A stretch of 64,000 bases of DNA. Source: Tenacibaculum agarivorans. GTDB lineage: Bacteria; Bacteroidota; Bacteroidia; Flavobacteriales; Flavobacteriaceae. The DNA lies in the NCBI RefSeq assembly GCF_001936575.1, contig NZ_MSMP01000008.1, positions 62,001-126,000 of the forward strand, in the 5' to 3' direction. Shown here piece after piece: positions 9,216-25,862 of this stretch. The notes beneath the pieces were generated by a model. It was given only the letters and a program-made list of their open reading frames with translations, was not told where the DNA came from and made no database searches. Numbering within the stretch: the stretch's first letter is position 1; each line of letters opens with the position of its first letter. The position numbers and the translations under genes are program-made.

Positions 9216-9267
9216 AGTTCGTCATTTTTTTTCCCACATACGTCATTTATTAGAGGCATTCAGTTGA

Positions 9268-9275
9268 TACTTTTG
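9268..9275 (+). promoter_or_regulatory. Candidate -7 box for the TonB receptor operon
   Basis: TACTTTTG matches the Bacteroidota -7 consensus TAnnTTTG. No TTG is seen 19-21 bases upstream, so the promoter may depend on an activator such as the divergent AraC protein. The leader to the receptor start is about 100 bases. Confidence 0.45.
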
Positions 9276-9290
9276 CGGACAGAATATTCT

Positions 9291-9309
9291 ATTTAAAATA
9301 ATTCTAAAT
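9291..9309. promoter_or_regulatory. Candidate 19-bp iron-repressor palindrome
   Basis: ATTTAAAATAATTCTAAAT is a near-perfect inverted repeat (ATTTArAATwATTyTAAAT). It lies just downstream of the predicted transcription start of the receptor operon, where a repressor would block transcription. Its 19-bp size and symmetry fit Fur- or DtxR-type iron sites. A weaker partial match (ATTTAATAAGTCTAAAT) lies near 9358-9374. Which repressor binds is not known. Confidence 0.5.
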
Positions 9310-9382
9310 AAATTTTGCAACTTCAGGGGAACAGTATACATCTGTTGCGAAAATAATATTTAATAAGTCTAAATAAAAATAA

Positions 9383-11782
9383 ATGAAAAAATTTATACTT
9401 TTAATTTTACTGTCGATGTGCAGTGTTATAAGTTATGCTCAGCTAAATGGAAAAGTTGTAGATAATAACAATGAGCCTATTCCGGGGGTAAGGGTCTCAA
9501 TAAAAAATTCAGACAAAGAAGTAATAACCGATATCGAAGGGAAATTCAAAATTGAAACAACTTCAAATGACAAGGAGTTAATTTTCTCTTTCTTAGGATT
9601 TAAAACAAAAGTCATTACAATTGCGGATTTACAAAATGATACAACAGTAGTTTTATATGAGGGGAATGAGCTTTTAGAAGAAGTAGCGATTACCAATTTG
9701 AAAAATAAGTTTTCAAGAAAAAAGACGGCTTATGTAGCTAAATTACCTTTAAAAAATATTGAAAATTCTCAGGTATATAGCACTATAACTAATCAATTAT
9801 TAATCTCTCAAAACGTTAATAATTTTGAAGATGCATTAAAAAATGCAGTAGGAGTAGATAAATTATGGCAGTCAACAGGTAGAGCAGGAGATGGTGCAGG
9901 TTTTTATTCTATAAGAGGATTTGCAACACAGCCTCAATTGGTAAATGGGATGCCAGGTATAACTAACGGATTCATTAATCCGCTTAACGTAGAAAGAGTA
10001 GAAGTAATAAAAGGACCTTCAGCAACTTTATTCGGTAGTACTATAACATCTTATGGAGGTTTAATTAACATTGTAACTAAAAAACCTTACAAAGGTACTG
10101 GCGGTACTATATCTCTAGGAGGCGGATCTTTTGGATTTAAGAAATTAGCTTTAGATGTAAACACTACCGATGCTAGTGAAAAATTTTCAATACGATTTAA
10201 TGCAGGTTTCCAATCAGAAGATAGTTTTCAAGATGCAGGTTTAAGAGAATCGGTATTTATGGCACCAGCAATTTCTTACCAAGTAAATGATAAATTAACT
10301 TTAAACTTCAATTATGAAGTTTCAGGAAATAAGCAAACAAATCCAGTATTCTTATTCTTTAATAGATCTGTGCCATTAGCATTTAATAATTTAGAGCAGT
10401 TAAATTATGATCCAAATTTATCATTAACAGATAATAGTATTCTAATAAAAAATCCTACACAAAATTATAGAGGAGAAATTGCTTATAAAATTACAGACAA
10501 CTGGTCTTCTCAAACTATAGTTTCTGGTGGTAGAGCTGAGTCTAAAGGTATTTATACATTCTTATGGAACTTTGCAGATTTTACAACTAATCCAGCTGCA
10601 CCAGCACCAACACCTTTCTTCAGTGTTTTTGCGCAAAGATCAGATGCAGAAACAAACTCGTTCGATATCCAACAAAACTTTACAGGAGACTTTAAAATAG
10701 GAGAAGTACGTAATAGATTATTAGTAGGAGTAGATTATTTAGAAACTCAAAATATAGATAAAAGCTCAGAGTTTAGAACTTTAAATGCTATAACAGCTCA
10801 AGGACAACTTTTACAAGGATTACCAACAAATGCTAATAGTGTTAATTTAGCATTAACTGGTGTGCCAAATTCAGATATCAATGTAAATCAAAATGTATTA
10901 AGTGCTTATGTTTCTGATGTTGTTAATATTTTACCTGAGTTATCTGTAATGGCAGGAATTAGATATGATCGATTCGACTATCAAGGAGATAAAAATACAG
11001 ATGTAGACGATGCTACTGAATATACTAAATCAACATTTTCACCAAAAGTAGGGGTAGTATATCAACCTATTTTAAACAAGGTTTCTGTTTTTGCGAATTA
11101 TCAAAATGGATTTAATTATGTAAATCCTGAATTAGCACCAGTAAGTTTAACAGATCCAACAGCAGGTTTACAATTACGTTCTTTCGATTTAGAAAATGCA
11201 GATCAATTTGAAGGTGGAGTAAAAACAAATTTATTTAGTAATAAACTAGAAGCAACACTGAGTTATTATAATATTACTGTGAGTAATAAAATCATAGGTT
11301 TTGGACCAGGAAAACAACAAGATGGTGAAATAAAAAGTCAAGGGGTTGAATTAGACTTTAATGCGTACCCAGTTGATGGTTTAAACCTTAGAGGAGGTAT
11401 TGCATATAATGATTCAGAAATAGTAGAGTCAACATCAAACCCATTACTAGTTGGTGAAAGATTTGGAGAAGCAGGAGCTGAGTTTACCTATAACTTTTGG
11501 GCAGATTATAGATTCCAAGAAGGAACGATTAAAAACTTAGGAATTACAGCAGGATTCAACGGTTCTAGCGATTACAATACCATGGAAGGATATCCTAATG
11601 TAGGAGAGTTTATATTACCAGCATATACGGTTTTTAATGCAGGATTGTATTATGACCATGCAAAATTTAGAGTAAGTTTTAATGTAAATAATTTAACTAA
11701 CGAGGAGTATTACAAAGGCTGGAGCACTGTTACTCCTCAACAACCAAGAGCTTACTTTGGAACTCTAACCTATAAGTTTTAG
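9383..11782 (+). CDS. TonB-dependent siderophore receptor
   Basis: 799 residues. Residues 1-19 are a signal peptide ending SYAQ. Residues 20-95 are a carboxypeptidase-regulatory-like beta domain (GKVVDNNNEPIPGVRVSIKN) common on Bacteroidota receptors. The plug follows, with VERVEVIKGPSATLFGS near 203-219, then a 22-strand-type barrel ending in a C-terminal aromatic (YFGTLTYKF). It sits in the outer membrane and would import the ferric siderophore made by the neighbouring locus. It is the first gene of an operon continuing to 14540 and is divergent from the AraC gene. Specificity is inferred from context. Confidence 0.93.
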   Translation: MKKFILLILLSMCSVISYAQLNGKVVDNNNEPIPGVRVSIKNSDKEVITDIEGKFKIETTSNDKELIFSFLGFKTKVITIADLQNDTTVVLYEGNELLEEVAITNLKNKFSRKKTAYVAKLPLKNIENSQVYSTITNQLLISQNVNNFEDALKNAVGVDKLWQSTGRAGDGAGFYSIRGFATQPQLVNGMPGITNGFINPLNVERVEVIKGPSATLFGSTITSYGGLINIVTKKPYKGTGGTISLGGGSFGFKKLALDVNTTDASEKFSIRFNAGFQSEDSFQDAGLRESVFMAPAISYQVNDKLTLNFNYEVSGNKQTNPVFLFFNRSVPLAFNNLEQLNYDPNLSLTDNSILIKNPTQNYRGEIAYKITDNWSSQTIVSGGRAESKGIYTFLWNFADFTTNPAAPAPTPFFSVFAQRSDAETNSFDIQQNFTGDFKIGEVRNRLLVGVDYLETQNIDKSSEFRTLNAITAQGQLLQGLPTNANSVNLALTGVPNSDINVNQNVLSAYVSDVVNILPELSVMAGIRYDRFDYQGDKNTDVDDATEYTKSTFSPKVGVVYQPILNKVSVFANYQNGFNYVNPELAPVSLTDPTAGLQLRSFDLENADQFEGGVKTNLFSNKLEATLSYYNITVSNKIIGFGPGKQQDGEIKSQGVELDFNAYPVDGLNLRGGIAYNDSEIVESTSNPLLVGERFGEAGAEFTYNFWADYRFQEGTIKNLGITAGFNGSSDYNTMEGYPNVGEFILPAYTVFNAGLYYDHAKFRVSFNVNNLTNEEYYKGWSTVTPQQPRAYFGTLTYKF

Positions 11783-11817
11783 TGTATAGTTGTGTATCAG
11801 TTTAATCCTTTTTATAA

Positions 11818-11851
11818 CAAAACTCTAAACTATTTTGGTTTGGAGTTTTGT
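11818..11851 (+). terminator. Hairpin after the TonB receptor, possible attenuator
   Basis: CAAAACTCTAAAC and GTTTGGAGTTTTG form a long stem with a short loop. No T-run follows it, so it may partly terminate, or stabilise the receptor mRNA, rather than fully stop transcription. The downstream genes lack another evident promoter. Confidence 0.5.
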
Positions 11852-11867
11852 GGTTAATAATTATGAA

Positions 11868-12209
11868 ATGATTAGTGTTTTACTTTTACTAACAGTAATA
11901 GGAACTTTTTTAAGGTATAGTACCTCAGAAAAAGTTGTAGTATCTAAAAAAACGTTTTTAGATGTATTGCTAAATAAATCCTTTGCGTATAAAAAAATAG
12001 TAGGAGGATCATTGCTTATTGCCGCATTGCTGGTATCAATTCTATGTAATGGAGTAACCTCAGGTGTATTTATATGGCTATTCATGATTACCATAGTGAT
12101 AAGTTTGTTAGTAACTCTATATCCTTTACAATTGATAAAAACAGTTTATGTTTTCAGCTTTTTAGTATTGTTAATACTAACAGAATTAATTTTAAATTAT
12201 GCCAGCTAA
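11868..12209 (+). CDS. Small membrane protein of siderophore-uptake operon
   Basis: 113 residues from the ATG at 11868. An upstream TTG at 11835 would add 11 residues but lies inside the hairpin, so the ATG is preferred. There are four hydrophobic segments and no motif I recognise. Proteobacterial receptor operons often carry two small membrane proteins (DUF3649- and DUF3325-like) before a PepSY protein. This gene and the next have the same order, size and topology, so they may be functional analogues; that is inference. It overlaps the next gene by 11 bases, indicating translational coupling. Confidence 0.7.
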   Translation: MISVLLLLTVIGTFLRYSTSEKVVVSKKTFLDVLLNKSFAYKKIVGGSLLIAALLVSILCNGVTSGVFIWLFMITIVISLLVTLYPLQLIKTVYVFSFLVLLILTELILNYAS

Positions 12210-12501
12210 TCCAAAATATTTAAATAAATCTCCTTGGCAACAATTTGCAAAGGTCTCAGCAGGAATTTTAGGTGGGTATATAGTCACAGCACTTTTGCAT
12301 ATGTGCTTACCATTATGGTTTCCTTACCCTAAAGAGATTTTAATCACTTCTATTTTTACAGTTTTTATTGTTTGGGGAGCCTTGTTAATCTTTCCCTTTT
12401 TATTTAAAAATGGTTGGAAAGCTTGGGGAATGTATATGATATTGATACTGATTTTATATATAATTTATGAATTAGGTAATTCAAAAAATCCCTTTATTTA
12501 A
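12199..12501 (+). CDS. Small membrane protein, iron-uptake associated
   Basis: 100 residues with three hydrophobic helices (roughly 20-42, 47-68, 74-91) after a polar N-terminus containing SPWQQFAKVSAGILGGY. Its size and position resemble the DUF3649-type iron-uptake protein found before PepSY proteins in other phyla, but I cannot confirm homology by eye. It overlaps the upstream gene by 11 bases and shares the stop/start TAATG with the PepSY gene. A role helping ferric-siderophore transit or reduction at the inner membrane is inferred from the operon. Confidence 0.7.
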   Translation: MPANPKYLNKSPWQQFAKVSAGILGGYIVTALLHMCLPLWFPYPKEILITSIFTVFIVWGALLIFPFLFKNGWKAWGMYMILILILYIIYELGNSKNPFI

Positions 12502-14540
12502 TGAGTAAGCGGAATTATAATGTGTTTTTTAATACACATACAGTAAGCGGAATTGTTATTAGTTTTGCCTTATATATTATTTTCTTTGCAGGAGCTTTTG
12601 CTTTGTTTAAAGATGAAATTAAGATTTGGGAAGAAGGCAAGTCTGTAAACCATATCAATAGAAAAGATGTTAACTTTGATCAGTTATTTGAAAAATTAGA
12701 TAAAGATTTTGATTTAATCGGTAGAGATTTAGAAATTGGTCTTGGCAAAAATGAAGATGAACTATATGTATATCTGTTGCCTAGTCAGGATACCACGGCT
12801 TCTGAGAGAAGTAAGCAACCTCAGTTTTTCTCTTTAAACATCCAAACAGAAGAAAGAAAACAGTATCATGAATATTATGGAATAGGGGAGTTCTTATATC
12901 GACTCCATTTTTTTCATCAAATTCCTACTATCGGAATTTATTTAGCGGGTTTTGTAGCTATATTTTTTCTGTTCGCAATAGTAACTGGAGTTATTGTACA
13001 TTGGAAAAAAATAATAACTAATTTTTATCATTTTAATCCGAAGAATGCTTTAAAAAGGGTTTGGTCTGAAGCACATACTGCTTTAGGTATTATAGGATTA
13101 CCATTTCAATTTATTTTTGCAGTAACTGGAGCTTACTTTTGTCTTTCAATTTTAGTATTACTTCCTGCTAATTTTCTTTATAATGGAGATCAACAAAAGT
13201 TAATAGAAAATATTCGTCCAGAGCGAAAAACATATGCTTGGGTTGAAAAAATAGATACAGAACTACCAAGTTTCAACAGTTTTATAAAAGAGTCAGATAG
13301 TTTTTGGAATGATTTCCAATTTTCTAATGCCTACATAAGGAACTACAGAGGAAGTAATATGAAATATATTCTTCAAGGCGAGCTAAATGATAAGGATAGG
13401 TTTGTAGGAGTAGGAAGAATAGTATTCGATTACGAAAATGGAAAGATAAATGCAGTAAAAAATCCTGAAAAATTAAATTATGTTGAAGATATACAAGGGG
13501 TATTAACTCGACTACATTTTGGAAATTTCGGAGGGGTGATTGTAAAAATCATCTACTTTATTTTAGCTTTAATTACCTGCTTTGTTATACTGTCTGGAGT
13601 ATTATTGTGGATAGAGTCTAGAAATAAAAAAAGTATGACTATTCAACAGCGGTTGTTCACAGCCAATGTTGGACATATTTATTTAGCTATTTGTTTATCA
13701 ATGCTACCAGTAACTGCAATTTCATTCCTTTTTAGCAAAATCTTTCATGGTTATTTTCAGAATAAACAGTCGTTTATATATTATTTCTATTTCTTGTCTT
13801 GGTTAATTTTCATTATTTATTTCCGTTATAAAAGAGATAATTATAAGATTAATAAACAGAGTCTACTAATAGGTGGATTAGTAGGATTGCTAATTCCAAT
13901 AGTAAACGGAGTTGTATCTAACCAGTGGATATGGAAATCAATAGAGAATGGACAGTCTGATATGCTAACTATAGATATACTTTGGTTGTGTATTGGAATA
14001 ACAAGTTTAGTAGTGTATACAAAGGTCTCAGAAAAGGTGAAAGAACAAAGTGCATTTTCAAAATATCCTATCGATTATAAAAACGTAAACAATTTAGAAG
14101 AATCAATACATAAAAACTTAATAATTAAAGATAAGAATCACATACCTATGAGAACAAAAATTATAATGTTGTGGGTTATACTTGTAATAGGGTTTATCAT
14201 ACATCATGTATATGGAATAGCAGACGTTTACTTTAAAGAATCATTACTTATAGAAGGTTCAAACGGAGAAATACCAGGATGGGCGCATCAATGGAGAATT
14301 CAATTAGAAGGGGTAGCTTTTTTATTTGCAGTGCTAACTATTCAACTCTCAAAAAACTGGTTTAAATGGGTTTCTTTAGTTTGGGCAATTTTAGTTGGTT
14401 TATTTAATATATATCATTTTATAACAGCCTTAATCTATGAAATTACAAACGTATCTGAAATATTAGTTTTAGCGACTATGGCCATTGCTAATATCTTTTT
14501 AATTAAAGAATTATTTACTTGGAAACCGTATACTAAGTAG
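12501..14540 (+). CDS. PepSY-TM inner-membrane protein, likely siderophore reductase
   Basis: 679 residues. A first membrane helix at 13-35, then a periplasmic PepSY-like region, helices near 145-167 and 195-222, a second PepSY-like region (about 230-335), and a further group of helices to the C-terminus. Several histidines sit at helix ends (LHFFHQIPT, HTALGI, LHFGNFGG, GHIYLAI), as expected for heme-binding PepSY-TM proteins. Related proteins such as FoxB reduce ferric siderophores at the inner membrane. It is the last gene of the TonB receptor operon, consistent with iron release from the imported siderophore. The family is clear; the reductase role is inferred. Confidence 0.82.
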   Translation: MSKRNYNVFFNTHTVSGIVISFALYIIFFAGAFALFKDEIKIWEEGKSVNHINRKDVNFDQLFEKLDKDFDLIGRDLEIGLGKNEDELYVYLLPSQDTTASERSKQPQFFSLNIQTEERKQYHEYYGIGEFLYRLHFFHQIPTIGIYLAGFVAIFFLFAIVTGVIVHWKKIITNFYHFNPKNALKRVWSEAHTALGIIGLPFQFIFAVTGAYFCLSILVLLPANFLYNGDQQKLIENIRPERKTYAWVEKIDTELPSFNSFIKESDSFWNDFQFSNAYIRNYRGSNMKYILQGELNDKDRFVGVGRIVFDYENGKINAVKNPEKLNYVEDIQGVLTRLHFGNFGGVIVKIIYFILALITCFVILSGVLLWIESRNKKSMTIQQRLFTANVGHIYLAICLSMLPVTAISFLFSKIFHGYFQNKQSFIYYFYFLSWLIFIIYFRYKRDNYKINKQSLLIGGLVGLLIPIVNGVVSNQWIWKSIENGQSDMLTIDILWLCIGITSLVVYTKVSEKVKEQSAFSKYPIDYKNVNNLEESIHKNLIIKDKNHIPMRTKIIMLWVILVIGFIIHHVYGIADVYFKESLLIEGSNGEIPGWAHQWRIQLEGVAFLFAVLTIQLSKNWFKWVSLVWAILVGLFNIYHFITALIYEITNVSEILVLATMAIANIFLIKELFTWKPYTK

Positions 14541-14629: not shown

Positions 14630-17302
14630 TTAAAATTGATACTTTAATGTAAGCATTACATATCTTGATAATAATCTATAATCAGTTATAGAACTACCAT
14701 TGTCATTTATTGTAAATTCTTGAAAAGTATCAGTATTAAATAGGTTTTTACCTACAAGAGAGATACTGATTTTAGGTGATTTAATTTTATATTCAGCACT
14801 AAAATCTGCAAAATAATAGACACTATTTTTTGGATTTAAATTGCCGAAAGAATAACGTTCTGTTTGGATATCAAAATTGAATGTATCATTAAAAATAAAA
14901 GATAAGTCTAAAAATGTATTATTGTTTGTATAAGATTGGTTAAAAGTAGTAGCTATAGAATTGGTGGTCCATTTAGTTCCCAAGTGATAATTAAACATAC
15001 TATTAAAACCTGATCGCATTTCTACACCATAGCTATAATTATCTGTTTTTACTTCCCTTAGGTTTGAGTCGTTAATAATATTTTTATAATTAGAACTAGA
15101 ATAACCTAAAACTAATTTTATGTTAGAAGATAAGCTATTGACAAATCTGTTTAAATTTGAAGAAATACCTAATAGACTCTTATCTTCAATTAGAATTTTA
15201 CTTGATTGAGTATAATTTTGTGTTAATTGTGTATTAGTAGAAAAGAAATCATGATACTTATTGTAAAATATAATTGTATTAGCAAAAAACTTTCCTCCCC
15301 AGTCCCCAAATTGATGATTTAAATTAAAACTAGAAGCATTAGTTTGATTAAAAGTACCAGTTCCTCTATTAAAATTCTGATATCCTGTTAAAACGTAATT
15401 ATTATATACATCTAAAACATTCGCATTGGTTCTATTTATAGAAGCTCCCATTGTTAATTCATTCTTTTCTCCAATATTCCATTTGAATTCAAATTCAGGA
15501 TTAAAAAATATAGGAACTTCCTCATTTGAGTTGTTTTCTGTATTAAAACGATTATATAATACGTGAACTCCTAAGTTCCCCATTAGAGCGAGTTTATTAA
15601 ACTTTAGTAAATACTTACCTTTAATAAAAGTATCATTAGTAAAATAAGTTAAATCGTTAGAATACTCGTTTGGGGCAATTTCTACATTTAGATTCTGTTT
15701 TAATAATAAATCAGAATTCAAAACATCCTGTCTTAAAGAATTTCCAAATCTTAACTCTAATAAATTACCACCTTTTTTTCTATTAAGAAAATGCCCTTCA
15801 AAAGCAATAAAATTCATAGTATTTTCAATTAACTGAGAAGCAGCATTAGCATTTGTGTTAGGAAATAAATCTTCGAATAAAAAAGAGTTAAAATCTACCA
15901 AGTAGTTTTGAGGTGATTTATCAAAAATGTATCTACCCGTTAATAAAAAGACTTTTCTTTTATTTAATTTGTTAGTGTAAACAATTTTTTGATCAAAAAA
16001 AGTGTTCTTGCCTTGTAGAAATTCGTCAATGCCTTCATTATTAAAAACTAAATTACTACTTTCAGTATAATTACGATAATTAAATTTTGAGGTTAACTCT
16101 AGCGTTTTTGTTTTTGAAAAATCATAATTTAGGTCAAACCTTCCAAAAGCTATTTTTTTCTTTTTTCTTAAAAAATAACTTTCTGTATTCATAAAGTCAG
16201 TATTACGAACTTGATAGTTTTCAATTGAATTCCTGAAAAAGTTATTTTCATCTGAATTTAAAAAAACTAATGACTTAATCTTTAATTTTTTTGATGGATT
16301 AAAAATTGCGTTTAATGAAAGCAATTCGGCATTATTAAAATTAGTTCTAGTTTCTTTAAACTTTGGAACAAAAGCGTCTAAAGATACTAAAGAACCTGTA
16401 GTTTGTTCATCTCCTAAACTAGAAACTTCATTCATTCTGTAAGGTCTAATTAGATGTTCAATTTCTCCAATTACATCTGTACCAGTATTATTAAGATTAG
16501 TTAAGAAATAATATTTATTTTTTTTCCCAAAGTTCATTAAGTTTCCTTTCATAGTATAAATATTTTCAGAACCTAAACCATATCCTAATGCCGAATTACC
16601 AAACCATATTCTTTTAGCCTTTTCATTTAAGATTAAATTTAAGGCAACTTTTTTGCTATTTTCTATTCCTTTTAAATGTTTGTTTTTAGAGTAATTTTTT
16701 AATAATTCTACTTTTTTGATAGGATCATTGGGCATATTCTTTGTTAATAGTTTATACCCTTTTTCAAAAAAATCATCGCCTTCAACCATTACTTTTTCTA
16801 TTTCTTTATTTCCCACTCTAATTGTGCCATCCGCATCAACTTCAACTCCTGGTAAATTTTTCAAAACATCTTCAACTACTTGTTCATTACCTCTTAAAAA
16901 AGATTTAACATTAAACGTAACAGTATCCTTTTTCACTTTTATAGACTTATTTGCTTTGATCACAACTTCTTGTAATTCAAGTTTCTTTTCTGTTAAATTC
17001 AGATTTACAATTAAGTTTTTATCAAACTTTTTAATGTCTATTTTCTGATCCTGATATCCTAAAGAAGAATAGTTTATCACAAAACTTTTTTGATTAGAAA
17101 CATTTAAAAGATAAGATCCATCAATGTCTGTATAGGTGAATGCAATTATTTTATTACTTAAACTATCTTTCTTAGCTACAACATTAACAAAAGGTATTGG
17201 CTTTTTTTCAGCGTCAACAATTTTCCCGCTAATAGTTTGCCCTACAGAAACTCCAATGGAGTATAAAAAAATGAATATTAAAAAACCTACCTTTTTTCCC
17301 AT
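14630..17302 (-). CDS. Outer-membrane beta-barrel protein, TonB-receptor-like, GLPGLI-associated
   Basis: 890 residues. Signal peptide 1-21 (ending VSVGQ), then a carboxypeptidase-regulatory-like domain (about 22-105, ISGKIVDAEKKPIPFVNVVAKK). A plug-like region follows (DTVTFNVKSFLRGNEQVVEDVLKNLPGVEVDADG near 125-158), then a long beta-barrel ending in an aromatic (LTLKYQF). It resembles the outer-membrane proteins regularly encoded beside GLPGLI proteins in Bacteroidota. It is last in a four-gene operon starting with two small secreted proteins, 16 bases after the GLPGLI gene. It may transport or assemble those peptides, but the substrate is unknown. Confidence 0.82.
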   Translation of the reverse strand: MGKKVGFLIFIFLYSIGVSVGQTISGKIVDAEKKPIPFVNVVAKKDSLSNKIIAFTYTDIDGSYLLNVSNQKSFVINYSSLGYQDQKIDIKKFDKNLIVNLNLTEKKLELQEVVIKANKSIKVKKDTVTFNVKSFLRGNEQVVEDVLKNLPGVEVDADGTIRVGNKEIEKVMVEGDDFFEKGYKLLTKNMPNDPIKKVELLKNYSKNKHLKGIENSKKVALNLILNEKAKRIWFGNSALGYGLGSENIYTMKGNLMNFGKKNKYYFLTNLNNTGTDVIGEIEHLIRPYRMNEVSSLGDEQTTGSLVSLDAFVPKFKETRTNFNNAELLSLNAIFNPSKKLKIKSLVFLNSDENNFFRNSIENYQVRNTDFMNTESYFLRKKKKIAFGRFDLNYDFSKTKTLELTSKFNYRNYTESSNLVFNNEGIDEFLQGKNTFFDQKIVYTNKLNKRKVFLLTGRYIFDKSPQNYLVDFNSFLFEDLFPNTNANAASQLIENTMNFIAFEGHFLNRKKGGNLLELRFGNSLRQDVLNSDLLLKQNLNVEIAPNEYSNDLTYFTNDTFIKGKYLLKFNKLALMGNLGVHVLYNRFNTENNSNEEVPIFFNPEFEFKWNIGEKNELTMGASINRTNANVLDVYNNYVLTGYQNFNRGTGTFNQTNASSFNLNHQFGDWGGKFFANTIIFYNKYHDFFSTNTQLTQNYTQSSKILIEDKSLLGISSNLNRFVNSLSSNIKLVLGYSSSNYKNIINDSNLREVKTDNYSYGVEMRSGFNSMFNYHLGTKWTTNSIATTFNQSYTNNNTFLDLSFIFNDTFNFDIQTERYSFGNLNPKNSVYYFADFSAEYKIKSPKISISLVGKNLFNTDTFQEFTINDNGSSITDYRLLSRYVMLTLKYQF

Positions 17303-18144: not shown

Positions 18145-18381
18145 TTACTCAACTAATAATTTAATTGCTTGACACTTAAGCCAACTAACATCAGTAATAG
18201 TAATATCTAAATTATATTCTTTTCCATCGTCAGTAGTTCCCTCTACATGAATTGTGCAGTCTCTGAACTCTGTAGAATCTTCTGATAAGTTAAATTCTGA
18301 TTCAGTATTTTTAATCTTGTTGTCGCTAAACCCTTGAAAAGAAAATAACGAAACTGCTAAAATTAAGGCTAGTTTTTTCAT
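18145..18381 (-). CDS. Small secreted cysteine-pair protein 2
   Basis: 78 residues. Signal peptide about 1-19 (LILAVSLFSFQGFS), then an acidic stretch and a compact segment with DCTIHVEGT, DDGKEYNLDITIT and WLKCQ. The C-x-h-x-h-x-GT-DGKE-L-hTh pattern is shared with the neighbouring 78-residue protein, so the two are paralogues. The two cysteines probably form a disulfide outside the cytoplasm. I do not recognise the family. Its position upstream of a GLPGLI protein and barrel, and divergent from lanthipeptide genes, suggests a partner or cargo of that system. Function unknown. Confidence 0.75.
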   Translation of the reverse strand: MKKLALILAVSLFSFQGFSDNKIKNTESEFNLSEDSTEFRDCTIHVEGTTDDGKEYNLDITITDVSWLKCQAIKLLVE

Positions 18382-18392
18382 GGTTGAAATAA

Positions 18393-18629
18393 TTATTGTT
18401 TCATAACTTCCTTAAGCATTGTACCAGCTGCTTTAGCACAGTCGTCAGCCTCAACAGTTACTACTAAATCTACTTCTTTCCCATCATAAGTACCTTTAAT
18501 AGTGACTGGACATGATTTAAAATCTTCGATAGATTCTGTATCAATCTTGTTAACTAATCCATTTTCAGTGTTGATTGCGAAGATGTTTGTAGCAAAAACG
18601 AATGCTCCTAATAAAAATAATTTTTTCAT
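18393..18629 (-). CDS. Small secreted cysteine-pair protein 1
   Basis: 78 residues, first gene of the minus-strand operon and 11 bases before its paralogue. Signal peptide about 1-18 (FVFATNIFA). The mature part contains SCPVTIKGT, YDGKEVDLVVTV and DDCAKAAGTMLKEV, predicting two or three beta strands and a C-terminal helix with one cysteine pair. It is preceded by a long leader of about 190 bases and a near-perfect promoter at 18828-18858. No known function; small size, secretion and high predicted expression are what the sequence shows. Confidence 0.75.
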   Translation of the reverse strand: MKKLFLLGAFVFATNIFAINTENGLVNKIDTESIEDFKSCPVTIKGTYDGKEVDLVVTVEADDCAKAAGTMLKEVMKQ

Positions 18630-18827: not shown

Positions 18828-18858
18828 CAAATATATAGGCGGTTTTTAGTGTTCACAA
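18828..18858 (-). promoter_or_regulatory. Promoter of the small-secreted-protein/GLPGLI operon
   Basis: On the minus strand TTG (18858-18856) is followed after 20 bases by TATATTTG (18835-18828), an exact match to the Bacteroidota TTG-N19-21-TAnnTTTG promoter. The phased 21-bp repeats begin only 5 bases upstream of the TTG, an ideal activator position. Confidence 0.75.
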
Positions 18859-18862
18859 GAAG

Positions 18863-18925
18863 TCTATATCTCCATTCATGAATAGCGACTCTGTATTCAC
18901 GAATTCAGACTCTGTATTCATGAAT
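18863..18925. promoter_or_regulatory. Triple 21-bp operator repeats (ATTCAYGAAT)
   Basis: ATTCATGAAT (18874-18883), ATTCACGAAT (18895-18904) and ATTCATGAAT (18916-18925) start exactly 21 bases apart. The flanks of units 2 and 3 also match (GACTCTGTATTCA). 21 bp is two helical turns and the spacing of tandem AraC-type half-sites. They sit between the divergent operons. The most likely binder is the TPR-AraC protein at 22106; that link is inference. Confidence 0.75.
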
Positions 18926-19016
18926 GAAGGTGTTTTATTTGTTGATTTTCAAAGCTTTGTTTGTTTGGTTTAGAATTTGAAGACTATTAAGTATTTTTGT
19001 TGTCAAATTGATAAGA

Positions 19017-21251
19017 ATGCACAAAAATCCGTATCAAGTTTTTAGTAATTATATTTTAAGAACACCGATGTTTTCATTGAATAGTTATAATAAGCTTACT
19101 AAATTTGATATGATAGATGAATTATCTTTTAATTCATTTATTACTTCAAGCATATTTAAAGAAGCTATCTACTTAGCATCACCTGAATTTTTCACAATTT
19201 TTGAAAGATATATTAATAATGATATAAAAGACTCTAAGAAAAAACAGCGTATAAGAAATTCGATTCTTAAATATATTACTAGAACTTGTAGTAGATGTAC
19301 TCCTTTTGGACTATTTACAAATTGTAGTGTTGGTAGTTTTTCTGATAAAACTGAGATTCAGTTTGAAACCAGCAAGATGTATAAACGGGTTACACGTTTA
19401 AGCATGGATGTACTTGATGAACTATGCAGAAATTTACTGCAAAATGAAGAAGTTAAAGAAAAAATAAAATTTTATACTAATAATAGTTTATACGCATTAA
19501 GTAATCAATTTAGATATATTTCATATGAAATTCAAAATGGAAAACGTATTTATAATTTAGATGGTGCTGTAAAAACAGAATATTTAGAGGCGATTATAGA
19601 AGAAGCTAAAAAAGGCAAAAGCATAGATGAATTAATAACGTTAATTGTTAAGGATAACATAACCAAGACAGAAGCGAAAGAATATATAAGTGCTCTTGTA
19701 GACTGCCAAATTTTAGTACCAGAACTAGGAATAAATCTTACAGGAAAAAACAGTTTAGATCATCTGATAGATATACTAAAATTAAGACATATCGATTCCA
19801 ATATTATTAATAGATTACAGCAATATCAGAAATCACTACTTAATTTAGATGAAAATTTTAGCAATACGAAAATAGATTATAACCTATTAATCGAGCAATT
19901 AAAGAATAAAGATAGTTTATCTAATCATAAATCTTTTTTCCAAACAGATGTCATGGCAACATTGCAAAGTAATGTGTTGGATAAGTCAATAGTACATCAA
20001 CTAAAAAAAGCTATGGTAATTTTAAATAAAATGTCTTTACCTTATGAAATTGAACGATTAGCTAATTTTAAAAGAATATTTAAAAAGCGCTTTGAAAGTC
20101 AAGAGGTAGCTCTTAGTTATGTTTTAGATACTGAATTAGGACTAGGGTATGATATGGCTAAAGATACCATAACTCCTTTATTAGATGATTTAAAATTAAC
20201 TCAGCCCAAAAAGCTATATAAAAGTATTATATGGACAGAGGTTGATGAGATATTATTAAAAAAGGTGTTATTTACTTTAAAAAATGGATCTAAAATAATA
20301 GAATTAACTCATGATGATTTCAAAGATTTTGAGTCAAAATGGGATGATCTTCCAGATACTATATCCACTGTAATTGAAATAGTAAATTTGGAAAGTGGTA
20401 GTCAAATTTTTTGTAACATGATAGGTGGAAGTAGTGCGGCAAATTTAATTTCAAGATTTAGTCATTTGGACAGCTCCATAGACAATCATGTTTCGCAAAT
20501 ACTTTCATTGGAAGAATCCATAAATCAAGAAAAAATCATAGCAGATATAGTTCACTTACCTCAGTCTAAAGCGGGTAATTTTATCTATCGTCCTACACAA
20601 AGATCTTATGAAATTCCTTATTTAGGGAAATCAATATTATCTTCGAAAAGACAAATAGATATAAACGATATTATGATTTCTATGCATGGAGAAGAAATCA
20701 TACTAAGATCTAAAAAATTTAATTGCCAAATTTTACCAAGACTTACAAATGCGCATGTACCTAGCTCGCAATCTCTACCTTTGTATCGATTTTTATGTGA
20801 TATTCAATTAGAAAAGAAAAGAGAAGGAGTTTGCTTTAAATGGCATAGTTTATTTAATAGTTTTTCATTTCTGCCAAGAGTAACTTTTCAGAATATTATT
20901 TTTTCTAAAGCTAAATGGATAATTAATATTTTAGAAATACAGCATTTGTATAAATTGTCAAATAAAGATGATGTATTTAAAGAGTTTCTAGATTGGGGAA
21001 AAACTCTTGAATTACCAAAATATGTTCAATTGGTAGAAGGGGATAATACTTTATTAATTCATACTCATAATTCAGATTGTATAAATATGTTATTGGCAAC
21101 TGTAAAGAATAAAAAAAGTTTTGTTTTAGAAGAGTTCTTATTCCATAATACTAATCTGGTAACAGACAATAGAGATTTTTTCTGCAATGAATTTGTTGTT
21201 TCTTTTTTTAATAATAAAAAACTAAAGGATATTGAAATTAAAGAAAACTAG
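19017..21251 (+). CDS. Lantibiotic dehydratase, N-terminal (glutamylation) half
   Basis: 744 residues from the ATG at 19017 (an upstream TTG at 19008 is less likely). The domain is Lant_dehydr_N: SRCTPFGLFTNCSVGSF near 95-111 and a C-terminal NEFVVSFFN near the position where the LanB glutamylation domain normally ends. In class I lanthipeptides this domain uses glutamyl-tRNA to activate Ser/Thr of the precursor. The elimination domain is on the next gene, overlapping by 20 bases, so LanB is split. A TATTTTTG box at 18992-18999 gives a very short leader. It is divergent from the small-secreted-protein operon. Confidence 0.9.
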   Translation: MHKNPYQVFSNYILRTPMFSLNSYNKLTKFDMIDELSFNSFITSSIFKEAIYLASPEFFTIFERYINNDIKDSKKKQRIRNSILKYITRTCSRCTPFGLFTNCSVGSFSDKTEIQFETSKMYKRVTRLSMDVLDELCRNLLQNEEVKEKIKFYTNNSLYALSNQFRYISYEIQNGKRIYNLDGAVKTEYLEAIIEEAKKGKSIDELITLIVKDNITKTEAKEYISALVDCQILVPELGINLTGKNSLDHLIDILKLRHIDSNIINRLQQYQKSLLNLDENFSNTKIDYNLLIEQLKNKDSLSNHKSFFQTDVMATLQSNVLDKSIVHQLKKAMVILNKMSLPYEIERLANFKRIFKKRFESQEVALSYVLDTELGLGYDMAKDTITPLLDDLKLTQPKKLYKSIIWTEVDEILLKKVLFTLKNGSKIIELTHDDFKDFESKWDDLPDTISTVIEIVNLESGSQIFCNMIGGSSAANLISRFSHLDSSIDNHVSQILSLEESINQEKIIADIVHLPQSKAGNFIYRPTQRSYEIPYLGKSILSSKRQIDINDIMISMHGEEIILRSKKFNCQILPRLTNAHVPSSQSLPLYRFLCDIQLEKKREGVCFKWHSLFNSFSFLPRVTFQNIIFSKAKWIINILEIQHLYKLSNKDDVFKEFLDWGKTLELPKYVQLVEGDNTLLIHTHNSDCINMLLATVKNKKSFVLEEFLFHNTNLVTDNRDFFCNEFVVSFFNNKKLKDIEIKEN

Positions 21252-22113
21252 GAAGCTTAGAAGAAGTTTTACCATTGGAGAAGAATGGATATACTATAAA
21301 ATTTATAGTGGTATTTCTGTTTCAGATACTATTTTAATAGATGTGCTTAAGAATATAACCGATCAGTTAATTGAAAACAATATAATTCTAAAGTGGTTTT
21401 TCATTAGATACTCTGATCCAGAACCACATTTAAGAGTTCGTTTTTTAATTAAAGATATCTCAGATTTTGGATTGGTAGTAAATAGTATTAGAAAAGATTT
21501 GTCAGTATTTATTAATAGTGGAGAGATTTGGGATATACAGTTGCACAGCTATAATAGAGAGCTGGAACGTTATGGAGAAACTACAATTAATTTGGCAGAA
21601 TCTATGTTTTTTTACGATACTGATATGGTATTGAATCTCATAAGATATAACCTTGACTCTGAAGACTATTTTATGTACATATTAAAAGCAGTTAATGATA
21701 CTTTAACTTTTTTTGAAATAGATGAACATAAAAAACTTAATTTAATAACTCAAGTAAGAAATTCTTTCAGAAAAGAGTTTAATATAGAAAAGACTTTGAA
21801 TAAGCAATTAGATAAAAAATTTAGAAGATTAGAGCCTAAAGTATCTAGTATTCTGAATTTCAGTAAAAATGATTTTAATTTACCTGCATTGAAATCTATT
21901 GATGGTAGAAACGTAAATTATAGACCTATAATTGATGAATTTGTTATGATGAATATGAATAAAGAATTATCAGTTCATATGGATGAATTAATAACAAGTT
22001 TTATCCATATGACAATAAATAGAAGTTTTCGTTCAAAACAACGGTTACATGAAATGTTAATATATGATGTACTATATCGTTACTATAAATCTAAAATAGC
22101 CAGAAATGAATAA
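21232..22113 (+). CDS. Lantibiotic dehydratase C-terminal (elimination) half, SpaB_C
   Basis: 293 residues, read from a TTG at 21232 because no ATG occurs before the conserved opening RSFTIGEEWIYYKIYSG. The block KWFFIRYSDPEPHLRVRF near 55-72 and HSYNRELERYG near 103 are hallmarks of the thiopeptide/SpaB_C elimination domain, which removes glutamate to leave dehydroalanine or dehydrobutyrine. It overlaps the glutamylation-domain gene by 20 bases in the +1 frame and the regulator gene by 8 bases. Together the two halves make about 1,040 residues, close to a full LanB. Confidence 0.88.
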   Translation: MKLKKTRKLRRSFTIGEEWIYYKIYSGISVSDTILIDVLKNITDQLIENNIILKWFFIRYSDPEPHLRVRFLIKDISDFGLVVNSIRKDLSVFINSGEIWDIQLHSYNRELERYGETTINLAESMFFYDTDMVLNLIRYNLDSEDYFMYILKAVNDTLTFFEIDEHKKLNLITQVRNSFRKEFNIEKTLNKQLDKKFRRLEPKVSSILNFSKNDFNLPALKSIDGRNVNYRPIIDEFVMMNMNKELSVHMDELITSFIHMTINRSFRSKQRLHEMLIYDVLYRYYKSKIARNE

Positions 22114-23806
22114 AATACGATTGTTATTTTTCTTTTTAATCATAGTTACATTTTGTAATGCTCAAAAAGTTCCTGATTCGCTTCTGCAGAGATCATATGA
22201 TAAGCTTTTTGATTTATACAATAGTGGCGATAAACTAGAAAATACTTATAATTATGCCCAAGCGTATTTGAGAAAGGCTCTGGGTGATAGAGATACTACA
22301 AAAATATTGACTGGATATTATTTAAATGCCTTACTATGTAAAGAGAAGAAGCGTTTACAATATTATGACAGTATTCTTGATCTTACAAAGTACTATCAAG
22401 ATGAGACTTACCCGACTGCAATTTATATATCCCAAGGTGACTTCTATTACAGAAAAAAAGATTTTAATACAGCTTTAGATTATTATTTAAAAGCTAAATC
22501 AACAGCAGAAAAAACAGATAATAAATTCTTAATTTATAACAGTAATTGTTTTATTGGTAAAGTTAGGGATAGAACAAAAGATTCTATAGCAGCTTTAAAT
22601 ATTCACAGAGAAAATTTTGTATTTGTAAAAAATAATATTTCAAAGTTTCCATCGGCAATTCATTTACAAGCATTATATGCTTTAGCCAACGCATATAATA
22701 ACACACAGGTATTAGATTCTGCATTATATTATAATAAAATAGGTTTAGAGTTAGCTCGTAAAACTAATTCAACAAATGAGTTACATCTTCTTTTATTAAA
22801 TGATGGTACTACACAGTACTATTTAAAAAATTATGGAAGTGCTATTCAAAGTTTGAGTAAAGCTAGGGATTACTTCAAAAAAATAAATAATAAATCTAAC
22901 TTATCGGAGAGTCTTTATTTTTTGGGAAAAAGTCAAATGAATGTAAATGAAAAAGAAGAAGCTATCAACAATTTTAAAATCATTGATACTATTTTTCAAA
23001 AAACAAATGACTTATTACCAAGATTAAGAGATTCCTATGAATTACTTATTAATTACTCTAAAGAAACTAAAAATTTAAATCAACAGTTATATTTTTTAAA
23101 TAACTTAATTAAACTAGATAGTATAATTACAACTAATGAAAGTTACCTTACAAACAAATTAATTAAGAAGTATGATATTCCAAAGATTGTAGCAGAAAAA
23201 GAAGCAGTTATTAACGAACTTGAAAGTAAAAATACTATCAATAAAAAAATTATTTTATTAATCGTTTTTGTTCTTATGGTGGTATCAATTTTATTATATC
23301 TACAATCGGTTAAGAAAAAGAAGTATAAAGAGCGTTTCGAAGCAATTATAGAACAAAGTAAAATAAATATACAAAAACAAAAAGTAGTAGAACAAGATCA
23401 AAAAAATGATCCAAAAATTAATGAAAAAGTTAAAAAAACTATTAATGTTCCAGAGGATATTGTAAATGAAATTTTTAAGTGCTTAGATAAGTTTGAAGCA
23501 GAAAAAGGATATCTGAATACAAATGTGAATATTCAAGAACTAGCAAAAAATTTTAAAACGAATGCTAACTATTTATCCAAAGTAATTAATCATTATAAAA
23601 AACAAAACTTTACTACTTATATTAATTATTTAAGAATAGACTATGTAATTGACGAATTACAAACAAATAAAACGTATCGAAAATTTACGATTAGAGCACT
23701 GGCTAGAGAGATTGGTTTTAAATCTTCAGAGTCTTTTTCCAAATCTTTTTATAAAAAAACAGGGATTAAACCCTCTTATTTTATAGAAAATATAGAAAAG
23801 AGTTAA
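22106..23806 (+). CDS. Membrane-anchored TPR-AraC regulator
   Basis: 566 residues. An N-terminal signal sequence (1-19, ending TFCNAQ) leads to a predicted periplasmic TPR region (about 65-330). A membrane helix follows at about 384-402 (ILLIVFVLMVVSILLYL), then a lysine-rich coiled coil and an AraC DNA-binding domain (about 455-562, ending TGIKPSYF). This sensor-regulator layout is frequent in Bacteroidota. It starts inside the dehydratase gene stop region and precedes the precursor gene, so it is the obvious regulator of the cluster and candidate binder of the ATTCATGAAT sites. The signal sensed is unknown. Confidence 0.85.
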   Translation: MNKIRLLFFFLIIVTFCNAQKVPDSLLQRSYDKLFDLYNSGDKLENTYNYAQAYLRKALGDRDTTKILTGYYLNALLCKEKKRLQYYDSILDLTKYYQDETYPTAIYISQGDFYYRKKDFNTALDYYLKAKSTAEKTDNKFLIYNSNCFIGKVRDRTKDSIAALNIHRENFVFVKNNISKFPSAIHLQALYALANAYNNTQVLDSALYYNKIGLELARKTNSTNELHLLLLNDGTTQYYLKNYGSAIQSLSKARDYFKKINNKSNLSESLYFLGKSQMNVNEKEEAINNFKIIDTIFQKTNDLLPRLRDSYELLINYSKETKNLNQQLYFLNNLIKLDSIITTNESYLTNKLIKKYDIPKIVAEKEAVINELESKNTINKKIILLIVFVLMVVSILLYLQSVKKKKYKERFEAIIEQSKINIQKQKVVEQDQKNDPKINEKVKKTINVPEDIVNEIFKCLDKFEAEKGYLNTNVNIQELAKNFKTNANYLSKVINHYKKQNFTTYINYLRIDYVIDELQTNKTYRKFTIRALAREIGFKSSESFSKSFYKKTGIKPSYFIENIEKS

Positions 23807-23845: not shown

Positions 23846-23855
23846 ATTCATGAAT
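23846..23855. promoter_or_regulatory. ATTCATGAAT site upstream of the precursor gene
   Basis: A perfect copy of the palindrome repeated three times at 18874-18925. A TAATTTTG box (23904-23911) lies 49 bases downstream, versus 39 bases between the nearest palindrome and the -7 box in the divergent operon: one helical turn different. Supports co-regulation of precursor and secreted-protein operon. Confidence 0.6.
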
Positions 23856-23954
23856 CAAGACAAGCATTTATAAAATGGTAAGCTTTTAGTTGAGTTTCAT
23901 TCGTAATTTTGGATTGACTAAAATTTAATTACTCACTAATCAAAAAACCATATC

Positions 23955-24143
23955 ATGAAAACATTAAAATTAGACAACTTTAGAGTATCTGCTTTATCAA
24001 ACTTACATGCAGTTAGAGGTGGAGATGATGATTCAGAAACTGGACCAAGTATATGTGTGGAGTCATCTAGTAAATGGGTTACACCATCTCAAGCAGGTGG
24101 TGGTGGAGGAAATGGTAAAGTAAGTGCAGTTATAATAAGATAA
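23955..24143 (+). CDS. Class I lanthipeptide-type precursor peptide
   Basis: 62 residues. The leader (MKTLKLDNFRVSALSNLHAVRGG) has the KLDNF...LS...V-GG form of Bacteroidota RiPP leaders. The predicted core begins DDDSETGPSICVESSSKW and continues with Thr/Ser sites, a run of five glycines and a hydrophobic end (SAVIIR). There is one cysteine and about eight Ser/Thr, so at most one thioether ring can form; other sites could stay dehydrated. It has its own upstream region with a candidate operator and is followed by a strong hairpin terminator. Family call rests on leader form and the adjacent dehydratase. Confidence 0.82.
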   Translation: MKTLKLDNFRVSALSNLHAVRGGDDDSETGPSICVESSSKWVTPSQAGGGGGNGKVSAVIIR

Positions 24144-24221: not shown

Positions 24222-25862
24222 ATGTTTACTTCCCAAATATCCATTAATCATATATATATTATAGTATTGATTTTATTATCAAGCTGTAATAATAGTAAGT
24301 ACATATCTATAGAAGATCAAAATATACCTCTATCACAAGTAGTAAAGGAAGAAAAAGTTAAAGATTGGAGTCATAAAGATATTTTACTTGATTCTATACC
24401 TGGGATTAGTTTAGAAAGGGCATATAATACTATTTTAAAAAACAAATCAGGAAAAGAGGTCATTGTAGCTTTAATCGATACAGGTGTTGATATAAATCAC
24501 AAGAATTTAAAAGATCACATTTGGATTAATGATGATGAAATTTTAGATAATAATCTTGATGATGATAAGAATGGTCATATAGATGATATTCAGGGGTGGA
24601 ATTTTTCAGGTAATGATAAGGAAGAGACTAATAAATATAATCATTATGATTACACTAGAATTGTAAGCGCATTTCGTGATAAATACAAGAATAAGGATGA
24701 AGATGATATTAATTCTTCTGATTTAAATGAATTTAAGATGTATAAAAGAGCTGAAAAAAGATTAAAGGAGAAAACCAAATCTGTGGCTCAAGAAAAAGAA
24801 TATGCACAAAATGTTTTTATATGGAAAAACAAGGCTATTGAGATTTTAAAAAATAAAACCAAAATCGAAAATATTACAATTCAAAAGCTCGATAGTATAA
24901 AGAAATTGTATGCAAAAGATTCTATTATACAATTAAATATTAAGATTGCAACTGGTTTCATAAAAAATGGGTACACTGATGATTATATAGATGGATTAAA
25001 GTTAAGAGCAAGTAATATGCTATCAAAACAACTTAATGTTAATTATAATGAACGGAAGGTAACTGGAGATGACCCTAATGATATGGCTAACACTAATTAT
25101 GGGAATTCTGAAATTAATGCAGACATTAACTTTTTTACTCATGGAACTATAGTAGCAGGCGTTATAGCTAAAAACACGCCTGAAATTAAAGTAATGCCGC
25201 TTTGTATTTCTGGTTTTGGTACTAAACATGATAAAGATATAGCACAAGCTATTTATTATGCTGTAAATAATGGTGCGAAAGTTATTAATATGAGTTTTGG
25301 TAAAGATTTTTCTTTACACAAAGAGTGGATAGATGATGCTATCAAATATGCAGAAAAGCATAATGTTTTAATTGTAACTTCAGCAGGAAATGACAATGAT
25401 GATATGGATAATATAGAAAAGTTTAATTATCCAGATGATAGAGATGAAAATGGAAAAGAAATTGTTTCCAATTTTTTGAAAGTAGGAGGATCTACATACA
25501 ATATAAATGAAGATTTAAAGTATGGATATAGCAATTACGGTTTGAAAAATGTAGATCTATTTGCGCCTGCAGAAAAGATATATACTACTTTTCCTGATAA
25601 TAAATTTAAATATGATACAGGTACTTCTTTAGCTTCTGCAATAACAGCTAAGATTGGAGCATTGTTGTATTCATATTATCCAAAATTGACATCTTCTGAA
25701 GTGAAAAACATACTTATGGATTCAGGAATCAAATATAACTTCAATGTGAAAGTTTCTTCAAAAGAAAACAAAACTATTCCTTTTGATAAACTTTCAAAGT
25801 CAGGTAGGGTTTTAAATGCTTATAATGCTTTTATAATGGCTGATAGCATTATATCCCATTAA
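24222..25862 (+). CDS. S8 (subtilisin-like) serine protease lipoprotein
   Basis: 546 residues. The N-terminus has a lipoprotein signal with lipobox LSSC near residues 20-23, so it is lipid-anchored outside the cytoplasm. The catalytic triad is visible: Asp in ALIDTGVD (about 82-89), His in FTHGTIVAG (near 305) and Ser in TGTSLASA (near 467). About 220 residues separate Asp and His, an insertion common in Bacteroidota members. Directly after the lanthipeptide precursor, it is the probable leader peptidase (LanP), but a general protease role cannot be excluded. All catalytic residues are present. Confidence 0.87.
   Translation: MFTSQISINHIYIIVLILLSSCNNSKYISIEDQNIPLSQVVKEEKVKDWSHKDILLDSIPGISLERAYNTILKNKSGKEVIVALIDTGVDINHKNLKDHIWINDDEILDNNLDDDKNGHIDDIQGWNFSGNDKEETNKYNHYDYTRIVSAFRDKYKNKDEDDINSSDLNEFKMYKRAEKRLKEKTKSVAQEKEYAQNVFIWKNKAIEILKNKTKIENITIQKLDSIKKLYAKDSIIQLNIKIATGFIKNGYTDDYIDGLKLRASNMLSKQLNVNYNERKVTGDDPNDMANTNYGNSEINADINFFTHGTIVAGVIAKNTPEIKVMPLCISGFGTKHDKDIAQAIYYAVNNGAKVINMSFGKDFSLHKEWIDDAIKYAEKHNVLIVTSAGNDNDDMDNIEKFNYPDDRDENGKEIVSNFLKVGGSTYNINEDLKYGYSNYGLKNVDLFAPAEKIYTTFPDNKFKYDTGTSLASAITAKIGALLYSYYPKLTSSEVKNILMDSGIKYNFNVKVSSKENKTIPFDKLSKSGRVLNAYNAFIMADSIISH

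Follow-up and report, generated by a model that had tools for sequence, protein, structure and literature searches.

The palindromic sites described here are likely (probability about 0.83) the operators of a TPR-AraC protein, which is encoded on the plus strand at 22106-23806 of the window, that is, the whole stretch of 64,000 nucleotides of Tenacibaculum agarivorans DNA that was analyzed. This protein is proposed as the binder of the sites; no binding or expression data are available. The finding extends from a single array to the operator code of a regulator family, for which binding, the direction of control, and the signal are unproven.

Results

A phased palindrome array lies between two divergent gene clusters

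The gap between two divergent gene clusters contains three sites with a pitch of exactly 21 bp (18874/18895/18916). The palindromic core 1, ATTCATGAAT (18874-18883), is the proximal site for the minus-strand operon; it is followed by the near-palindromic core 2, ATTCACGAAT (18895-18904), with arms TCTGT..TCAGA, and by the palindromic core 3, again ATTCATGAAT (18916-18925), which is proximal to the LanB operon. GACTC is common to both spacers, located at 18887-18891 between sites 1 and 2 and at 18908-18912 between sites 2 and 3; these boxes are read as a right arm overlapping the next left arm. A lone palindromic core, ATTCATGAAT with the right arm CAAGAC, was found ahead of the precursor gene at 23846-23855. 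No strand was assigned to any of the cores or boxes.

ATTCAYGAAT occurs on either strand at six places in the window, as compared to 0.46 places on average and a maximum of three in 300 dinucleotide-preserving shuffles of the window; a 21-bp pair was obtained in none of these 300 shuffles. When the 378-bp intergenic gap was shuffled 20,000 times, at least one copy appeared in 44 shuffles and three copies in none. Allowing one mismatch, 39 matches were found in the window versus 20.9 expected. The array is non-random in the window. The core word at 12463 lies inside a reading frame. The copies at 4572 and 31907, where the arms of the longer palindrome were not seen by eye, may be due to chance.

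The sites are surrounded by a peptide cluster and a secreted-protein operon

The divergent operon is preceded by a Bacteroidota-type promoter on the minus strand (18828-18858), consisting of TTG at 18858-18856 and the -7 element TATATTTG at 18835-18828, which starts 39 bp beyond the 18874 palindrome. The -7 and promoter elements were assigned by the known Bacteroidota consensus. The first gene of this operon encodes a small two-Cys protein with a signal-like start (18393-18629), followed on the same strand by a second small two-Cys protein showing 32% identity to the first (18145-18381), a GLPGLI family protein (TIGR01200; 17319-18083), and an 890-aa CarbopepD_reg_2 protein, by reading of the outer-membrane-barrel type (14630-17302). 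The plus strand encodes a lantibiotic dehydratase N-terminal protein (PF04738, 404.6 bits; 19017-21251, with the first ATG at 19017 and the listed ORF beginning at a TTG at 19008), a lantibiotic dehydratase C-terminal protein (PF14028/TIGR03891, 209.9 bits for PF14028; 21232-22113), the TPR-AraC regulator, a 62-aa GG-leader precursor peptide without any NCBIfam match at E ≤ 1 (23955-24143), and an S8 subtilisin-like protease with, by eye, a lipoprotein-like N terminus (24222-25862). The -7 element of the precursor gene, TAATTTTG (23904-23911, plus strand), starts 49 bp past the 23846 core; ahead of LanB, a -7-like TATTTTTG (18992-18999, plus strand) starts 67 bp past core 3.

A previous sequence-only reading had placed palindromes at 18874, 18895, 18916, and 23846, had expected fewer than one copy in 64 kb, and had given -7 distances of 39 and 49 bp, one helical turn apart. 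All of these statements held, with sequence and coordinates exact. The copy that it located in porG at 31905 failed by two bases, as the start is 31907. Neither the GACTC spacers nor the longer palindromic unit of about 22 bp had been used in that reading.

The LanB criterion of a class I lanthipeptide cluster is met (PF04738, PF14028). A LanC cyclase could not be detected in the whole genome (no PF05147 match at E ≤ 0.001); hence, "lanthipeptide" is better read as LanB-dependent peptide, with ring formation unknown. Inferred from the missing LanC match, the product might be dehydrated without LanC-type ring closure. Four C39-peptidase matches, two of them weak, are located elsewhere in the genome, and such peptidases could possibly export GG-peptides.

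In a separate part of the window (8250-14540), an AraC-type regulator was seen beside a TonB-dependent receptor, followed by a PepSY-TM protein, an arrangement resembling siderophore uptake. The PepSY-TM protein was assigned by Pfam domain search and its two neighbors by eye.

The regulator combines TPR and AraC-type domains

The regulator carries the C-terminal AraC-type double HTH of the AraC/XylS family (PF12833, 38.2 bits at a cut-off of 33.6; PF00165, 30.4 bits at a cut-off of 26.6). A structure model obtained with a 64-row alignment (mean pLDDT 89.6) revealed, in this order, an N-terminal helix, a TPR superhelix (about 24-320), a helix at 324-431, a low-confidence linker, and the AraC domain (about 450-565). 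By eye, the N terminus is signal-like, and helix 324-431 includes the hydrophobic stretch NKKIILLIVFVLMVVSILLYL at about 378-400. The membrane topology is inferred from this eye reading of the sequence, with no signal or membrane predictor behind it. Neither a histidine kinase nor a receiver was found in the regulator, for which Pfam at E ≤ 0.001 returned TPR and HTH domains only. Structural searches with the TPR part gave LGN as the first match in one search and APPBP2 in another, with Rap, NprR, and PlcR close behind; these matches allow peptide binding but do not show it. Furthermore, the DNA-binding domain is C-terminal, contrary to the RRNPP criterion of an N-terminal effector.

A paralogous cluster of the same genome carries a similar array

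Throughout the 5.63-Mb genome, 21-bp pairs with 0 to 2 mismatches were found in the window array only. Taking all mismatch levels up to 3 together, 19 matches were obtained versus 5 for a reversed control pattern. One place from the 3-mismatch list, C1:406518, sits just upstream of a second split LanB gene. Its cluster has the order LanB-N, LanB-C, TPR-AraC, with 40, 37, and 35% identity to the window cluster; two cores are located 129 and 108 bp ahead of the LanB reading frame, and one further core lies 13 bp past the regulator stop, at the contig end. This paralogous two-core array of the same pitch supports co-regulation by the TPR-AraC protein. A wrongly spaced version of an extended pattern, GTCNNATTYATRAATNNNGAC, showed no excess in the same genome (15 matches versus 35 for the control). 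Besides those of the window and the paralogous cluster, two TPR-AraC regulators were observed on one short contig, C60 (L082, 1038-2801 and 4976-6658), with a GG-peptide behind the first; at least four such regulators are therefore encoded in this genome, and the operator arms differ between their loci.

The motif recurs across the regulator family

At E ≤ 1e-60, a profile built from 7 regulators found matches in 91 of the 397 genomes of the family. Sixty of the listed places were fetched and combined with the first seven clusters, yielding a first set of 77 regulators that scored above 300 bits. The later set was drawn from named genomes and comprised 79 loci, mainly of Aquimarina, Flavobacterium, Tenacibaculum, Polaribacter, Kordia, and Lutibacter, and 83 regulators were left after the removal of 12 duplicates. 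A phylum-wide draw matched 22 of 296 genomes at E ≤ 1e-70, all belonging to the same order; the third set consists of 22 regulators from 22 of 29 phylum-wide loci, the other 7 being omitted since they were already in the first set. For the first set, the tested stretch was 400 bp upstream, or -20 to +150 of the stop codon.

ATTYATRAAT was found at 40/77 regulators of the first set, where 27 half-site rearrangements unable to spell ATTTATAAAT gave 0-5, at 30/83 of the later set (unrelated rearrangements 0-4), and at 5/22 of the third set (rearrangements 0-1). A count of palindromic 10-mers without a prior pattern ranked ATTTATAAAT first (27) and ATTCATGAAT second (13), the next one reaching 8. 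The exact core was missing from the tested stretches of 37/77, 53/83, and 17/22 regulators in the three sets, and the looser frame ATTY-NN-RAAT was present at 55/77, 50/83, and 16/22 (unrelated rearrangements 10-20, 12-23, and 2-7). The absence of the exact core together with the gain by the looser frame means that specificity must vary. Recurring centers are CAGG, CCTG, CTAG, and CGTG, and near relatives such as TTTCCGGAAA were also seen. Since the loci share a common ancestry, the counts do not represent independent trials, and the shuffle figures overstate certainty.

Near-identical palindromes of the first set are spaced by 21 (10 cases), 22 (7), or 31/32 bp (3 and 2), and seven other spacings occurred once each. 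Core spacings of the later set were 21 (6) and 22 bp (2) only. A double site in genome G039, with copies 14 bp apart, is off the 21-bp pitch. The alignment of 89 sites from related loci gave an operator unit of about GTC-N3-ATTYATRAAT-N3-GAC, approximately 22 bp long, the arms of which are weak, with at most 0.52 bits per position. As we read this alignment, sites placed 21 bp apart have one base in common, where the GAC that closes one unit runs into the GTC that opens the following one. Many sites are highly symmetric (9 of 9 pairs at 8 loci). The automated pick of the best palindrome was wrong for the precursor region of the window itself.

At least four tandem TPR-AraC genes each were observed at two loci (L072, 1014-7974; L081, 1074-7937); the leading gene of either array is preceded, at a distance of 169-172 bp, by a core-like palindrome.

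Sites behind the regulator keep preferred distances to the -7 element

A TAnnTTTG-like element was searched for, with at most one mismatch and TA kept. At 29 loci with a core past the regulator stop, the -7 element starts at 39 (10), 40 (3), or 49 bp (4), and no other offset occurred more than twice. The distances 39/40/49/50 account for 17/29 of these post-regulator sites, and for 17/41 when LanB sites are added; 300 shuffles of the 41 sites gave a mean of 1.6 and a maximum of 5. In the later set, the same distances were found at 10/16 sites versus a shuffle mean of 0.68 and a maximum of 3. The difference of one helical turn between 39 and 49 bp fits an activator bound on one helical face. 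None of 12 LanB-upstream sites had a -7 element at these distances, and 31 sites upstream of regulator genes showed no clear peak of -7 distance. By eye, the -33 region at the peptide promoters is poor.

When 299 genomes were scanned for a core combined with a -7 element, about 68 places were obtained versus 28 for a shifted control, an approximately 2.4-fold excess. Several matches are located at unrelated genes, and at least eight seem, by eye, to represent a single conserved coding stretch. Among 12 scan regions chosen by eye, a TPR-AraC, GG-peptide, or secreted-protein/GLPGLI gene is present in 6 and absent from the other 6; three regulators in the former 6 scored only 126-213 bits. As a separate observation, three promoters of genome G252 (L280, L281, L282) share ATTTATAAATATCGAC followed by a -7 element at 40 bp. 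The fetched stretches contain neither a TPR-AraC nor a recognized peptide gene, and these promoters may be distant members of the regulon.

An unlikely alternative is that the sites repress, that is, that the regulator blocks promoters until it is released by a signal. In its favor, the sites upstream of LanB and regulator genes have no fixed -7 distance, and palindromes are typical of repressor operators. Against it, the cores at the peptide promoters precede the -7 element by 39/40 or 49/50 bp. This places them beyond the usual core promoter on a single face of the helix, which is where an activator would sit, and the -33 region of these promoters is poor by eye. Even less plausible, and in our opinion very unlikely, is the explanation that the palindromes are RNA hairpins or terminators between operons. 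Some sites do have long inverted repeats, as upstream of LanB in L028 and ahead of the precursor in L029. However, the genes flanking the window array are divergent and require no terminator between them, and RNA structure would explain neither the phasing of 21/22 and 31/32 bp nor the preferred -7 distances.

The motif accompanies the regulator family rather than lanthipeptides

A LanB-C search over 59 genomes, including that of T. agarivorans, gave a match in 9, whereas named genomes queried with LanB returned no match. Intergenic cores were present in 7/7 of the first-found clusters with split LanB and TPR-AraC (the window, L026-L030, and L033), and cores were found in 0/4 of the clusters with full-length LanB and without TPR-AraC (L034-L037). 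At L031, which has no TPR-AraC gene, two cores 19 bp apart are located about 4.8 kb from LanB. LanB was absent from the fetched stretch at 31/48 site-bearing regulators. A lanthipeptide-specific signal was rejected: the motif occurs beside LanB-less regulators and is missing at the four full-length-LanB clusters lacking the regulator. The motif goes with the TPR-AraC regulator family and not with lanthipeptides.

Two further observations were made near LanB genes. At about 7479 of L032, a core-like ATTTACAAAT precedes a partial LanB-C gene by about 360 bp; the stretch contains no TPR-AraC gene, and this site is unexplained. Runs of GG-leader peptide genes were seen near LanB, six in L028 (12930-14531) and three in L034 (3332-4002).

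The outer arms follow the local regulator

Where one regulator has sites in separate regions, these sites agree with one another in 4.67 of 8 outer-arm letters. Identity to sites of other genomes was 3.99 of 8, and the value of 4.67 was reached in 3 of 5000 draws; between different regulators within a genome it was 4.13, and 4.67 was reached in 1052 of 5000 draws. For 48 regulators, site similarity was correlated with similarity of the DNA-binding domain at a partial r of 0.22 with the TPR part held constant, and the reverse gave 0.07. In a Mantel test restricted to pairs of less than 75% identity, 2 of 1000 permutations came up to the observed value. The correlations are modest, and they indicate that the outer arms follow the local regulator and not the genome; this arm correlation is weak and might in part be historical.

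Regulators without a GG-peptide (motif rule) also bear sites, up- or downstream, in 19/45 cases of the first set and 13/34 of the later set. At L098, L103, L104, and L105, sites are located upstream, and neither a peptide nor LanB was seen. The arm pattern, together with sites ahead of regulators lacking both peptide and LanB, points to the local TPR-AraC protein as the binder.

A near-perfect palindrome is unexpected for such a protein, because AraC domains are not two-fold symmetric. Alternatively, a two-fold symmetric dimer factor or a LytTR-type protein from elsewhere could bind the sites, the TPR-AraC gene being just a member of the regulon. The symmetry of many sites is more readily reconciled with a symmetric dimer than with an AraC domain. 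LytTR direct repeats also have a period of 21-22 bp, and the genome contains 40 LytTR matches, one of them in the window some 25 kb away (about 44502-44810, ORF 44482-45297). This alternative is nevertheless unlikely: the arms vary between the regulator loci of one genome about as much as between genomes, yet agree within a locus; they track the AraC DNA-binding domain, albeit modestly; and sites persist at regulators without a GG-peptide. Moreover, the motif is unlike the LytTR consensus; neighboring genes were not scanned for LytTR.

GG-leader peptides and proteases adjoin the regulators

A GG-leader peptide frame (motif rule) follows 32/77 regulators of the first set, and the core was present at 29 of these 32 and at 19 of the other 45 regulators. 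In the later set, the exact core was found at 17/49 peptide-bearing loci. By our own rule, a reading frame of >400 aa lies downstream of 57/81 peptide-bearing regulators; Pfam assigned 22 of these 57 to the S9 prolyl oligopeptidases and 20 to the S8 subtilases, and some of the remaining frames are further regulators or plain neighbors.

The secreted-protein genes have counterparts as well. Genome G135 encodes four small two-Cys proteins not more than about 7.5 kb away from a TPR-AraC/GG-peptide/S8 module, two of them similar to the second small protein (sp2) of the window (blastp E about 2e-4 and 7e-4), along with a GLPGLI relative and an 891-aa protein that by eye resembles the barrel protein of the window. 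ATTTATAAAT with a -7 element at exactly 39 bp is located ahead of two of the small genes. Genome G039 is a weaker case: a small secreted protein and a GLPGLI relative are encoded beside the regulator, behind the 14-bp double site. The small protein showed no blastp similarity to the window at E ≤ 0.01, and the -7-like CATCTTTG at 39 bp, which has one mismatch, was seen by eye and missed by the automated search.

Discussion

The sequence-only reading had claimed that an AraC-type activator encoded at 22106 co-regulates the precursor, the dehydratase, and the secreted-protein/GLPGLI/barrel operon. In its main line this claim is supported, although without binding data. Control of the dehydratase is less certain, with 0/12 LanB sites showing the 39/49 geometry, and the lanthipeptide link had to be corrected, as the system is not lanthipeptide-specific (31/48 without LanB; no LanC). 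Checks and refuting conditions had been given with the claim. The genome-wide search for tandem sites returned close 21-bp pairs at this array alone. Conservation in related clusters held, but many related regulators have no exact core. As to sites at unrelated genes, the scan of 299 genomes matched such genes also.

Neighboring operators in the window share a GACTC box and repeat every 21 bp, that is, every two helical turns, on one face of the DNA. We propose that the regulator is anchored in the inner membrane and that its TPR domain is extracytoplasmic. The activated regulator would bind to the operators and recruit RNA polymerase to promoters with a -7 element starting 39/40 or 49/50 bp past the core. 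Two promoters of the window fit this rule, that of the precursor at 49 bp and that of the divergent secreted-protein/GLPGLI/barrel operon at 39 bp. With less certainty, the three-site array may act on the LanB-regulator operon as well (at 67 bp), which would amount to autoregulation. By inference, the signal is likely to be a peptide, and the processed GG-peptide encoded in the same cluster is a possible candidate.

A bolder reading, which we consider less likely than not, is that self-sensing peptide circuits are widespread in Flavobacteriales. According to this reading, an exported GG-leader peptide would be cut to size by the neighboring S8 or S9 protease before the TPR domain of the membrane-anchored AraC protein recognized it outside the cytoplasm. 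Acting through palindromic sites, this protein would then switch on its own peptide and protease operons as well as the output operons. Within one cell, paralogous circuits would be kept apart in that each regulator reads its own outer operator arms. If true, this would represent a Gram-negative, one-protein counterpart of Gram-positive peptide signaling.

For the operator reading itself, a large regulator family of Flavobacteriales would possess a readable code of core, arms, 21-bp pitch, and 39/49-bp promoter distance, from which regulons and silent peptide clusters become predictable from sequence and can perhaps be switched on. Communication via processed GG-peptides in these bacteria becomes testable, and a palindromic operator of an AraC-type domain poses a structural puzzle. 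No paper on this operator or on TPR-AraC control of GG-peptides was found in the searched literature, which did not cover most subscription papers.

Several known systems resemble parts of the one described here. In class I lanthipeptide clusters of Bacteroidota (pinensin type), a LanB-type dehydratase is likewise combined with a GG-leader precursor; the differences are the missing LanC and the many site-bearing regulators without LanB in the fetched stretch. Two Bacteroidales RiPP clusters include TPR-domain genes, and TPR domains may regulate expression upon pheromone binding in other bacteria (PMC10352776).

RRNPP proteins (Rap, NprR, PlcR) share a TPR superhelix of high structural similarity (VIA Z about 18-23) and adjoining small peptide genes; in RRNPP systems, the peptide gene adjoins the receptor gene. 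Unrelated TPR proteins (LGN, APPBP2) match the TPR fold equally well. RRNPP proteins are cytoplasmic with N-terminal effector modules, whereas the TPR-AraC protein has a C-terminal DNA-binding domain and, by eye, a signal-like start and a hydrophobic segment.

E. coli AraC is a soluble, sugar-binding protein, and its araI1-I2 sites are tandem asymmetric 17-mer half-sites 21 bp apart beside the promoter. The AraC-type domain and the 21-bp tandem pitch are shared, but the units in the window are palindromic.

The motifs of the AraC-type hybrid two-component systems (HTCS) of Bacteroides are predicted direct repeats with an average pitch of 21 bp (PMC3878776). HTCS resemble the TPR-AraC protein in this pitch, in having a C-terminal AraC-type domain and, if the inferred topology holds, a periplasmic sensor, in motif groups that follow the protein tree, and in adjacent target genes (PMC3878776). 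The identity of the regulator as such a hybrid system was rejected, as Pfam at E ≤ 0.001 found neither kinase nor receiver. HTCS possess a histidine kinase and a receiver, and the studied ones sense glycans, whereas Pfam detected only TPR and AraC domains in the TPR-AraC protein; its operator unit is itself palindromic, often single, and placed at a preferred -7 distance, and its targets are peptide clusters.
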